From: Ignavibacteriae bacterium HGW-Ignavibacteriae-2
GTDB lineage: Bacteria; Bacteroidota; Ignavibacteria; Ignavibacteriales; Melioribacteraceae
NCBI GenBank assembly: GCA_002839805.1
Contig: PGYT01000030.1
Coordinates: 1 to 32,649, forward strand
Reading direction: 5' to 3'
DNA length: 32,649 bases
This document shows positions 5,893-7,751 of the stretch, piece by piece. The notes under the pieces are model-generated. The model was not told where the DNA came from and made no database searches. It worked only from the letters and a program-made list of their open reading frames with translations. Within the stretch, counting starts at the first letter, position 1. Every line of letters begins with the position of its first letter. The position numbers and the translations under genes were made by a program.

Positions 5893-6102
5893 TTAGTTTT
5901 CTACAATAGCGTCAACAGCACAAACTTCCACACAAGATTTGCAATCATTGCAGAGTTCAGGTACTATAAAAGTATAGTCTTCAGATAAAGCTTCTTTAGT
6001 TTCGCCATTAACAGAATAGCTTTCGCCGGCATTATATATTGCATTGCTTTCGCATTCATCAATACAGGCTGAACAGTTTATACATTCATCAGTTACACGC
6101 AT
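5893..6102 (-). CDS. 2x[4Fe-4S] ferredoxin
   Basis: Small cytoplasmic electron carrier with two cubane clusters. It has two complete CxxCxxCxxxC motifs: C7-C10-C13-C17 and C51-C54-C57-C61. Neither has the usual proline after the fourth Cys (CESNA and CAVDA). The spacer between the clusters is longer than in the shortest clostridial ferredoxins (about 55 aa) and holds an acidic ALSEDYTF stretch, as in chlorobial/YfhL-type ferredoxins. AAGGAG lies about 10 nt before the ATG. It is the second gene after the TauE-like permease (85-nt gap), and the pair diverges from DUF134-NifX. The electron partner is unknown. Confidence 0.95.
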   Translation of the reverse strand: MRVTDECINCSACIDECESNAIYNAGESYSVNGETKEALSEDYTFIVPELCNDCKSCVEVCAVDAIVEN

Positions 6103-6186
6103 TTCTTAAAACTCCTTTATTGTAATAAGTAAAATATATTTTACTCTGTAAAATTATTTAGTCTTTTAATAATTAACAAGAGAAAA

Positions 6187-6906
6187 TCATCCGAAAATCA
6201 TAAAAAGTCCCGCGGCAAACAAAAACAGAAGGATAAATTTGTTATAAACAATTGAAGAAATTTTACCGAATAGAAATTTACCGGCAATTTGTCCAATAAA
6301 AATAAACGGAAGATAAATGAAAAAATTTGTTAAAACGGAGCGGGTAGTTAATCCAATCATCAAGTGGCTGAAAACAATAAGTACCGAGCTAAAAATAAAG
6401 AAGCCGGTTATAGACGCCTTCTGTTTGTATTTATCCCAGCCGTGCAAATAAAAATAAATGAGTACAGGAGGCCCATTCGTATTAAAAGCTCCGCCGAGCA
6501 GACCCGAAAAAAATCCAAAAACATATGCCCACTTATCACCTATTGTTATTGAATGACCAACTTTACCGAGTGAAATTAAAACAAAAAGTATAAGAACAAA
6601 ACCAAGCAGGAATTTAATTAAATCCGGATTTGCTGTGGATAGGAAAAATGCGCCTGCCGGTATGCCTATTATCGAACCTAAGATCAGATTTTTGAGTTCA
6701 AAAAATTTTATATGTTTGTGTAAATCTATAATCAGATAAATATTTATAATCAATCCGAACAAAGCACACATCGGAATCGCAAGTTTTACATCTATAAAAA
6801 AAGTTATTATAGATAATGCGACAAGCTGGAATCCAAAGCCGCTAAAACCCTGAGTGAAAGATGCGATCGTAAGTATTATTCCGATTAGTAGAAATTCGAA
6901 GGACAA
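6187..6906 (-). CDS. TauE/SafE-family (DUF81) membrane permease
   Basis: Predicted inner-membrane transporter of the family that moves sulfite, sulfoacetate and other small organic anions. At 239 aa it shows about eight hydrophobic segments in two halves. Each half has the characteristic Gly-rich signature: TQGFSGFGFQ (about 18-27) and GFFSGLLGGAFNTNGPP (about 131-147). The start is a TTG at 6906 with GGAA 6-7 nt upstream; no in-frame ATG lies nearby. It heads the minus-strand pair with the ferredoxin and shares a 161-nt divergent promoter region with DUF134. The substrate cannot be deduced. Confidence 0.85.
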   Translation of the reverse strand: MSFEFLLIGIILTIASFTQGFSGFGFQLVALSIITFFIDVKLAIPMCALFGLIINIYLIIDLHKHIKFFELKNLILGSIIGIPAGAFFLSTANPDLIKFLLGFVLILFVLISLGKVGHSITIGDKWAYVFGFFSGLLGGAFNTNGPPVLIYFYLHGWDKYKQKASITGFFIFSSVLIVFSHLMIGLTTRSVLTNFFIYLPFIFIGQIAGKFLFGKISSIVYNKFILLFLFAAGLFMIFG

Positions 6907-6950
6907 AAAAAATTCCGTTTAACATAAAAATAAGTGTCTTAAAATAATAA

Positions 6951-6989
6951 ATTAGCGGGCCACTCTATAATGATAATTATAACGCTAAT
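6951..6989. promoter_or_regulatory. Inverted repeat in TauE/DUF134 divergent promoter region
   Basis: ATTAGCG (6951-6957) is repeated inverted as CGCTAAT (6983-6989) across 25 nt of AT-rich DNA. It lies 45-83 nt upstream of the TauE start, so it could bind a regulator or overlap promoter elements. This rests on position and symmetry only. Confidence 0.3.
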
Positions 6990-7042
6990 AAATTAATTTT
7001 TATAATTTCTTGGATAATTCATGCGGGTTCACTAATTTTAAA

Positions 7043-7058
7043 TTGTGCATATGCACAA
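7043..7058. promoter_or_regulatory. Perfect 16-bp palindrome, candidate operator of the DUF134-NifX operon
   Basis: TTGTGCATATGCACAA is a perfect dyad ending 9 nt before the DUF134 ATG, where a ribosome-binding site would normally lie. It occurs in the divergent region shared with TauE-ferredoxin. The adjacent gene encodes an HTH protein, so autoregulation is a reasonable inference. As RNA it could also hide the translation start. Confidence 0.6.
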
Positions 7059-7067
7059 AATGAAATT

Positions 7068-7349
7068 ATGGGAAGAAACAAAAAACATAGACGATGTCGA
7101 TTTCTTAATGAGAAGAAAGTTTTTAAGCCAATTGGTATACCAATTACGGATTTACCAACTATTGAGATAGAAACGGATGAATTTGAAGCGATGCGTTTAT
7201 GTGATATTGAAAATAAAAATCAAATTGAAGCGGCGGAAGCAATGAAAATTTCGCGCGGCACAATTCAAAGATTGTTACAATCGGGCAGATATAAACTAAC
7301 GCGAGCCATTCTAAATAATAACGCTATAATAATAAAAAATAATATTTGA
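7068..7349 (+). CDS. DUF134-family HTH DNA-binding protein
   Basis: Small predicted transcription regulator (93 aa). A basic N-terminus (GRNKKHRRCR) precedes the family core FKPIGIP and IETDEFEAMRLCDIE (about 19-48). A sigma-region-4-like helix-turn-helix follows: QIEAAEAMKISRGTIQRLL (about 52-70). DUF134 genes are known to neighbour NifX/NifB-domain proteins, and one follows here after 9 nt. No Shine-Dalgarno is visible because a perfect palindrome occupies the site just upstream. Its likely targets are its own operon and the divergent TauE-ferredoxin pair. Confidence 0.88.
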   Translation: MGRNKKHRRCRFLNEKKVFKPIGIPITDLPTIEIETDEFEAMRLCDIENKNQIEAAEAMKISRGTIQRLLQSGRYKLTRAILNNNAIIIKNNI

Positions 7350-7358
7350 GGATTTATA

Positions 7359-7751
7359 ATGAAAATATGTATTCCTACTTACGGAACTAGTGGATTAAAA
7401 GATTCTATCTATAACCATTTCGGGAGCTCAAAATATTTTACAATTTATGATTCGGAAACCAAAGAAATAAATGTTATCGAAAATTTCAACAGTCATCATC
7501 AACACGGACAATGCCAGCCTCTGAAAGCCATTGAAGGGTGTAATGTTGATGCGGTATTAACAAGCGGGATGGGAAAAAAAGCTGTTCTAAGTTTAAATGG
7601 TGGTGGCGTAAAGGTTTTTCTGTGTGAAGAAAATACAGTAGAAGAAGCTATAAACAAATTTTTGGATGGATTTTATACGGAACTAACTGTAGATGGCGCT
7701 TGTGGCGGACATGGTCATCACACCGATCATTTGCACGATCACACTCATTAA
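7359..7751 (+). CDS. NifX/NifB-type dinitrogenase cofactor-domain protein with His-rich tail
   Basis: Has the small RNase H-like fold that binds iron-sulfur or iron-molybdenum precursor clusters in NifX, NafY and NifB C-termini. The domain covers about residues 1-110: MKICIPTYG start, DSIYNHFGSSKYFTIYD, then DAVLTSGMGKKAV. An HHQHGQC stretch (46-52) sits in the probable ligand loop. The C-terminal tail (116-130) is dominated by histidines (GGHGHHTDHLHDHTH), suggesting metal binding. No nitrogenase genes are in the window, so a stand-alone metal or Fe-S role is more likely than nitrogen fixation. GAGGA lies 7 nt before the ATG. Translated with DUF134 (9-nt gap). Confidence 0.9.
   Translation: MKICIPTYGTSGLKDSIYNHFGSSKYFTIYDSETKEINVIENFNSHHQHGQCQPLKAIEGCNVDAVLTSGMGKKAVLSLNGGGVKVFLCEENTVEEAINKFLDGFYTELTVDGACGGHGHHTDHLHDHTH

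Follow-up and report, generated by a model that had tools for sequence, protein, structure and literature searches.

A conserved palindrome upstream of DUF134 genes as the probable operator of a putative sigma-region-4-like autoregulator

The perfect 16-bp palindrome that lies just upstream of the DUF134 gene studied here is best explained as the operator of the DUF134 protein encoded directly behind it, which would negatively autoregulate a small metal-cluster/Fe-S carrier operon; we assign this reading a probability of about 0.86. We infer that a DUF134 dimer very probably binds the dyad and, from its position on the promoter, represses the operon that encodes it. The signal is most likely metal-sulphur cluster state, a preference that follows from the targets and fusion partners, which are NifX/ORP-domain and Mrp/NBP35 proteins. 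In some bacteria, the palindrome very probably controls Fe-S cluster carrier genes as well. What the computation shows is the site with its conservation, its association with DUF134 genes, its constant position relative to predicted promoters and its extra copies in Fusobacteriota, together with a predicted helix-turn-helix fold for the protein. The window (the whole stretch of DNA analyzed, 32,649 nt) carries the following features:

7010-7012, plus strand: TTG, predicted -33 element (TTG-N20-TAATTTTA)
7033-7040, plus strand: TAATTTTA, predicted -7 element, one mismatch to the Bacteroidota-type TAnnTTTG
7043-7058, no strand: proposed DUF134 operator, perfect 16-bp dyad TTGTGCATATGCACAA (core TGTGCATATGCACA), conserved upstream of DUF134 in several phyla
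7068-7349, plus strand: DUF134 (UPF0251) protein, 93 aa, sigma-region-4-like helix-turn-helix, proposed autoregulator (PF02001, 64.1 bits; AlphaFold2 pLDDT 87.7)
7254-7313, plus strand: predicted recognition helix, residues 63-82, with G64 (7257-7259) and Q67 (7266-7268) as proposed specificity residues
7359-7751, plus strand: NifX-like protein, proposed operon partner of DUF134 (PF02579, 77.3 bits)

The dyad and its linkage to DUF134 genes

The open reading frame at 7068-7349 is a member of the DUF134 family, matching PF02001 with 64.1 bits over residues 2-90 (gathering cut-off 27). We take DUF134 to be the same family as UPF0251, PF02001 and COG1342. The NifX-like gene (7359-7751) is co-directional with DUF134 and begins 9 nt after its end, and its product shows a weak match to the C-terminal part of MrpORP. 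A TauE/SafE-type exporter gene (6187-6906) adjoins DUF134 divergently, and a gene of this type is also found beside DUF134 on a Citrobacter plasmid (L343:182-979), upstream and on the same strand.

The earlier note on this DNA described a fully symmetric 16-bp palindrome 9 nt from the DUF134 ATG, and this is confirmed, with TTGTGCATATGCACAA occupying 7043-7058 and a gap of 9 nt (7059-7067) to the ATG at 7068. In a window this rich in AT, symmetry by itself is close to chance level, with three perfect 16-bp palindromes against a mean of 1.15 and a maximum of 4 in first-order Markov windows (n = 40), and it is because the dyad is conserved that we count it as real. The second palindrome, GTAAAATATATTTTAC at 6129-6144, lies 26 nt upstream of the start of a minus-strand ferredoxin ORF (5893-6102) and may be a regulatory site or chance, and the third, AATTGGTATACCAATT at 7130-7145, lies inside DUF134 itself, where the conserved KPIGIP motif is encoded, and is probably a coincidence. 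At the GC content of the window, the exact 14-bp core is expected 0.015 times per 4.16 Mb, and it is observed once in the source genome (4.16 Mb), where the full 16-mer is also present as a single exact copy. Allowing up to three mismatches to the 16-mer yields 14 other places, each with exactly three, compared with 12 for a reversed control pattern.

A PF02001 profile search of 58 genomes (this one and 57 relatives) gave matches at E 0.001 in 37 and over the cut-off in 30, with 21 genomes without a match. At most of the DUF134 genes fetched from this set, a dyad lies within about 60 nt of the start codon, in two dominant forms that accompany different predicted recognition helices: TGTGCATATGCACA is found with SRGT[IV]QR proteins and TTATGAGCATATGCTCATAA with SR[AP]TFGR proteins. 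The exact cores TGTGCATATGCACA (5 copies) and TGAGCATATGCTCA (13 copies) lie just upstream of DUF134 in all 18 cases, on the correct strand and 7-25 nt from the start of the DUF134 domain match. Both cores are absent from the 21 genomes that lack a DUF134 match, and a search of all 58 genomes with the reversed pattern as control found no copy. This linkage of exact cores to DUF134-bearing genomes has a Fisher p of 6e-5, which serves only as a guide, the genomes being related. The many scattered copies that the earlier note had held out as an argument against an operator are not what is found, with one copy in the source genome and 18/18 exact copies at DUF134 across the 58 genomes.

A second such argument, absence of the dyad upstream of orthologues, likewise fails for the window's own order when upstream regions are compared. 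Loci from further phyla were added around four MAGs (Fusobacteriaceae, Calditrichaeota, Bipolaricaulota and Limnochordia), from which the group names used here are taken (Fusobacteriota, Calditrichota, Bipolaricaulota and Bacillota-type), together with the rest of the window's own phylum and plasmids. The main survey comprises 252 distinct records, with the same protein start and the same 80 upstream bases counted once, and is restricted to loci that hit the seed profile at E 1e-5; an earlier cross-phylum upstream comparison comprised 173 distinct records of 181. The loci are the best-scoring hits per search plus 80 hand-picked regions and are not a random sample, and in one phylum search the DUF134 matches are at least those listed. 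A site was called at 12 or more of 14 matches to TGWGCATATGCWCA within -150 to +10, or at 13 or more of 16 for the general form TTATGNNCATATGNNCATAA. Scoring 14/14 for TGWGCATATGCWCA, the window site belongs to the proposed operator class, defined as TGWGCATATGCWCA or TTATGNNCATATGNNCATAA upstream of DUF134.

At the TGWGCATATGCWCA threshold, sites are found at 27/32 loci of the window's own order, 18/19 of the Calditrichota group, 32/54 of the Fusobacteriota group and 30/48 of the Bipolaricaulota group, leaving 22/54 Fusobacteriota-group and 18/48 Bipolaricaulota-group loci with no dyad at 12/14 or better. Control stretches from the same loci reach 0 to 0.43% in these four groups and 0 to 0.98% over all groups. 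For the window's own order, the controls give 0/290 with TGWGCATATGCWCA and 0/280 with TTATGNNCATATGNNCATAA, and the latter form recovers 30/32 loci. The operator class is thus widespread, yet not universal in the DUF134 family, as it is mostly absent in the Bacillota-type group (TGWGCATATGCWCA at 3/59 loci; TTATGNNCATATGNNCATAA at 10/59, against 2.3% in controls) and in the own phylum outside the order (TGWGCATATGCWCA at 3/35; TTATGNNCATATGNNCATAA at 6/35, against 2.2% in controls). Among plasmid records, TGWGCATATGCWCA at 12/14 or better is present in 0/5, and a de novo dyad search over 30 Bacillota-type and 30 other own-phylum loci found no common motif.

Several groups have features of their own. 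Operators of the Bipolaricaulota group (e.g. L189, L204 and L266) are often asymmetric, combining an A-type and a T-type half in 19/30 sites, with distances of 45-135 nt to the start codon in many cases. In the own phylum, mostly within family f21, there are GRPxxCRSVE-type DUF134 proteins (L050-L079) without a recognizable dyad of this class upstream of their genes, and many of these genomes encode two such proteins. The family as a whole is distributed over several bacterial phyla, two control methanogens and conjugative enterobacterial plasmids, with no match in a phage collection.

Placement on predicted promoters

Bacteroidota-type promoters consist of -33 and -7 elements, the latter with the consensus TAnnTTTG. 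In the window, TTG (7010-7012) is followed by 20 nt, TAATTTTA (7033-7040), two bases and then the dyad. A sigma70 consensus promoter was tried as an alternative and rejected, as it gave one hit (TTAACA/AATAAT, 6919-6948), below the shuffled mean of 3.3, and the -33/-7 layout fits better. Across the order, TAnnTTTG abuts the dyad in 17/27 sites (control 1.1%), a set that does not include the window's own box, and the full TTG-N20-TAnnTTTR arrangement ends at the dyad edge in 11/27 sites, against 0/5400 random positions.

Other groups place the dyad on predicted promoters of sigma70-like type. In the Fusobacteriota group, such a promoter is predicted near 32/32 sites (control 8.1%), and in 31/32 the first base of the -10 hexamer is exactly 18 nt upstream of the dyad centre, so that the usual start would fall inside the dyad. 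In the Calditrichota group, a promoter is predicted near 17/18 sites (control 5.6%), eight with the Fusobacteriota layout, one a base off, and eight with the dyad in the -35/-10 spacer. These last eight have TTGACA followed by a spacer of 17 bp in seven and 18 bp in one; because their -10 element is partly the dyad's own arm, the independent evidence is TTGACA at 17-18 bp only. In the Bipolaricaulota group, a promoter of the tested types is found at 1/30 sites. Judged from these promoter predictions, transcription would start within the dyad or downstream of it at most sites of the window's own order, the Fusobacteriota group and the Calditrichota group.

The observation that no Shine-Dalgarno sequence is visible at the DUF134 gene, made in the earlier note, stands, in that no GGAG, GAGG or AGGA occurs between dyad and ATG (7059-7067). 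This absence is unremarkable, with an SD-like motif at 4/32 DUF134 genes of the order and at 5/17 window ORFs of at least 200 aa (first ATG). The dyad was also said to occupy the ribosome-binding position; judged from the predicted starts, this seems to be incidental to a short leader in a lineage with few SD sequences. In DUF134 genes that have both a site and an SD-like motif, the whole motif is located downstream of the core (31/31 in the Fusobacteriota group, 16/16 in the Calditrichota group).

In the mechanism that we propose, two copies of DUF134, each with a sigma region-4-like fold, would read the half-sites TTGTGCAT with their recognition helices. The operator would sit on the core promoter, directly behind the Bacteroidota-type -33/-7 elements and over the likely transcription start, where bound DUF134 would block RNA polymerase and switch off both DUF134 and the adjacent NifX-like gene. 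Repression would probably be relieved on a change in state of the cluster pool.

The DUF134 protein, its proposed half-sites and further candidate targets

An AlphaFold2 model of the window DUF134 protein, built on an alignment of 5 sequences (pLDDT 87.7, pTM 0.74), contains helices at residues 36-47, 52-59 and 63-82 with flanking strands. When compared with known structures by Foldseek and VIA-align, sigma region-4 domains fill most of the top rows, including sigmaE region 4 on -35 DNA, and a DeoR DNA-binding domain is also among the matches. The best VIA Z is 7.7, with an rmsd of 2.7 over 59 residues, where a Z below 8 can reflect a common arrangement, and the best Foldseek E is 0.036, with none at E 0.001. 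Against the sigma-4 Pfam models, the window protein falls below the cut-off (21.8 vs 25.7 bits) and its relative L113 lies above it (32.9 bits); a PDB sequence search found no clear DUF134 relative (best E 0.19). By resemblance, not proof, DUF134 would be a helix-turn-helix protein of the sigma-4 type. Its SRGTIQR segment presumably aligns where sigma recognition helices read the -35 element.

The half-site is numbered outward from the centre of the dyad, which in the window gives T1 A2 C3 G4 T5 G6 T7. Among the 113 records with a site at 12/14 or better, 67/67 with G64 have T5 in at least one half, and of the 46 without G64, 41 lack T5 and 5 have it. A tally of single half-sites extends the comparison; it takes sites at 12/16 or better, a threshold that controls reach in 1.4-4.3%, so that some rows, above all Bacillota, may be chance. 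At position 5, G64 goes with T in 100/120 half-sites, A64 with A in 53/64 and P64 with A in 34/46; Q64 is split between A (8) and G (8) of 16, and S64 (6 half-sites) and T64 (10) are mixed. Position 4 is G with Gly67 (59/62), Gln67 (148/160) and Ala67 (4/4), and A with His67 (6/6), Thr67 (11/14), Ser67 (5/6), Phe67 (5/8) and Val67 (1/2). The Bipolaricaulota group shows the same trend at position 5, with A in both halves at 6/6 sites of A64 proteins and T in at least one half at 24/24 sites of G64 proteins; a further 15 G64 loci there have no site.

The plasmid records fit the residue pattern in part. A Phocaeicola plasmid protein with SRPTLSR has the site TGAACATTTGTTCA, as the pattern predicts, and for SRQTLAN, in a protein from an E. 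coli plasmid, the site is TTGGCATATGCCA, with G5 in both halves. In Klebsiella and Citrobacter relatives of the latter, one half carries G5 and the second A or T at that position, the Salinivibrio sites are mixed, and the Pusillibacter site is off-pattern. On a tree built without the helix columns, the site changes 3 times, each time with residue 64, and residue 64 needs 6 changes; in 5 records residue 64 differs while the site has stayed the same. A tree-controlled test of residue 64 against site type has at most 3 informative pairs, which all agree and are not significant, and its repetition on 104 rows and for residue 67 gave too few pairs. Half-site bases 5 and 4 thus appear to track residues 64 and 67, exceptions included, with independent switches too few for significance.

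We hold a wider reading tentatively, at somewhat under even odds: DUF134 proteins may be phylum-crossing sigma-4-like repressors with a simple code, which would sense a metal-sulphur cluster via NifX and feed back on their own operon and on Mrp/NBP35 carriers. As part of this tentative reading, residue 64 would specify base 5 (Gly for T, Ala or Pro for A, Gln for G or A), and, equally tentatively, residue 67 would specify base 4 (Gly, Gln or Ala for G; His, Thr or Ser for A).

Copies of the dyad away from DUF134 are found in Fusobacteriota. Across 98 genomes of this group there are 33 exact copies of the core, spread over 27 genomes; 25 copies lie at a distance of 18-70 nt from a DUF134 domain match, and the 47 genomes that lack such a match have no copy (association p 2e-10). 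Seven of the 8 extra copies precede Mrp/NBP35 genes (5), a NifX-like gene (1; L331) or a DUF1858 gene (1; L327, divergent from DUF134), and the eighth (L333) lies before an ORF without a Pfam match. The Mrp/NBP35 proteins of L325 and L326 match PF10609, with L325 also matching MrpORP over the cut-off; those of L328-L330 were called by N-termini very similar to the scanned proteins. In the same group, DUF134-NifX fusions are present at 9/54 loci (e.g. L113 and L105). A NifX-like gene lies downstream of DUF134 at 25/32 loci of the window's order, 16/19 Calditrichota and 29/54 Fusobacteriota loci, and at 3/48 Bipolaricaulota, 13/59 Bacillota and 3/35 other own-phylum loci, counts taken from flanks of which many are short.

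A larger regulon in the window's own order was considered and rejected. At one mismatch, TGWGCATATGCWCA occurs at 23 places in 11 genomes, of which 11 are DUF134 sites, leaving 12 extra places compared with 5 for the reversed control. Of 8 extra near-sites fetched, seven lie inside ORFs of at least 198 aa, two of these no more than 60 nt from the earliest start codon available, and the eighth is intergenic. This last one, at L340:1501-1514 in the relative G018, is a near-operator TGAGTATATGCTCA within a longer dyad; the ORF that it precedes contains cysteine, has no Pfam match and may be a second DUF134 target in the window's own bacterial family.

DUF134-NifX pairs also occur on enterobacterial plasmids, and 186 plasmid records match. 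The plasmid loci (L118, L342, L343 and L344, and also L119, L115 and L346) have two imperfect GCATATGC-type dyads upstream, with 4-6 of 7 pairs. The distance between their centres is 28-29 bp in four Enterobacteriaceae records and 22-23 bp in those from Morganella and Salinivibrio.

Competing explanations and known systems

DUF134 could bind the dyad and activate the operon, or both repress and activate it, acting as a region-4-like helper of polymerase. The sigma-region-4-like fold is compatible with this, as is the dyad in the -35/-10 spacer at 8 Calditrichota sites, the arrangement used by MerR-type activators, whose operators lie in long -35/-10 spacers. However, these eight spacers are of normal length (17 bp in 7, 18 bp in 1), and in the Fusobacteriota group and the window's own order the site covers the predicted start, a position that activators seldom occupy. 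We regard activation as unlikely.

The dyad could instead serve as operator for a different regulator, such as one of the CRP/FNR, HcpR or Rex type, with the DUF134 operon as a target only. CRP and Rex boxes have half-sites spaced as TGTG-N8-CACA, and the TTGTG...CACAA of the dyad resembles CRP/FNR-like and Rex half-sites. The spacing here, however, is TGTG-N6-CACA (TGTG-CATATG-CACA), which falls outside a CRP/FNR/Rex box. A global regulator would also have many sites, rather than the one exact copy in this genome, genomes without DUF134 lack the exact site (0/21 and 0/47), and the half-site varies with the DUF134 recognition helix, making this explanation highly improbable.

A shade more remote still is the second option of the earlier note, an RNA hairpin in the leader that controls DUF134 translation by hiding or shaping the start region. 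The dyad does end 9 nt before the ATG, and RNA 7041-7090 folds into a 6-bp hairpin (-7.5 kcal/mol, z -3.0), but the longer RNA 7037-7120 is unremarkable (z -1.5), and no Rfam family matches at gathering score within 6900-7400. Also against the hairpin, the CATATG centre, whose middle would have to form the unpaired loop, is matched exactly in 24/27, 15/18, 32/32 and 17/30 sites of the own-order, Calditrichota, Fusobacteriota and Bipolaricaulota groups, a count that the choice of sites by similarity favours, and the same dyad also precedes unrelated genes. The predicted promoter geometry, with starts that are inferred, disfavours the hairpin as well: 8/18 Calditrichota dyads lie in the predicted spacer and 31/32 Fusobacteriota dyads lie across the predicted start, so that the full hairpin would go untranscribed. 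A dyad at fixed spacing on predicted promoters, outside or across the predicted transcript start, favours a DNA operator over an RNA hairpin. The idea of a chance palindrome, for which three in the window against a simulated mean of 1.15 might speak, is negligible, being refuted by fixed-position conservation across phyla with controls. The option of a DUF134 operator, which the earlier note had also raised, is supported by the linkage, the conservation, the predicted-promoter geometry and the extra targets.

With a defined operator, DUF134 would cease to be a 'protein of unknown function' and become a regulator whose targets can be predicted, and a motif would be available for genome scans of its regulon. 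DUF134 is often found beside NifX/ORP-domain or Mrp genes, and the DUF134-dyad pairs with coupled variation form a natural set for studying specificity change in a small helix-turn-helix protein. A search of the open literature (titles and the starts of abstracts, with subscription papers mostly outside it) found no operator or binding study of DUF134, and prior work is possible.

Pfam describes PF02001 (DUF134) as a family of unknown function; the gene adjacent to the dyad is a member, and the dyad is proposed as the operator of the family. DUF134 resembles sigma-70 region 4 (e.g. 2h27, sigmaE region 4 with -35 DNA) in its predicted helix-turn-helix fold, but is a stand-alone 93-aa protein and not a sigma factor, and its palindromic site implies a dimer, not a -35 hexamer. 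The ORP/MrpORP clusters of Desulfovibrio (DVU2103-2109) share with the extra targets in Fusobacteriota their NifX/ORP-domain and Mrp/NBP35 genes. The passages of PMC3897727 that describe these clusters place them under the sigma54 activator DVU2106, which acts through palindromic sites of its own, whereas a DUF134 dyad is proposed here; the word DUF134 does not appear in the accessible parts of PMC6345978, PMC3897727 and PMC4641369. Closest in design are the small autoregulated one-component repressors, with which DUF134 shares its gene order, an operator on the promoter and, in the window's own order, an apparent single-site regulon. From these it differs in its sigma-4-like domain, its NifX partner or fusion, and its two-residue specificity pattern.
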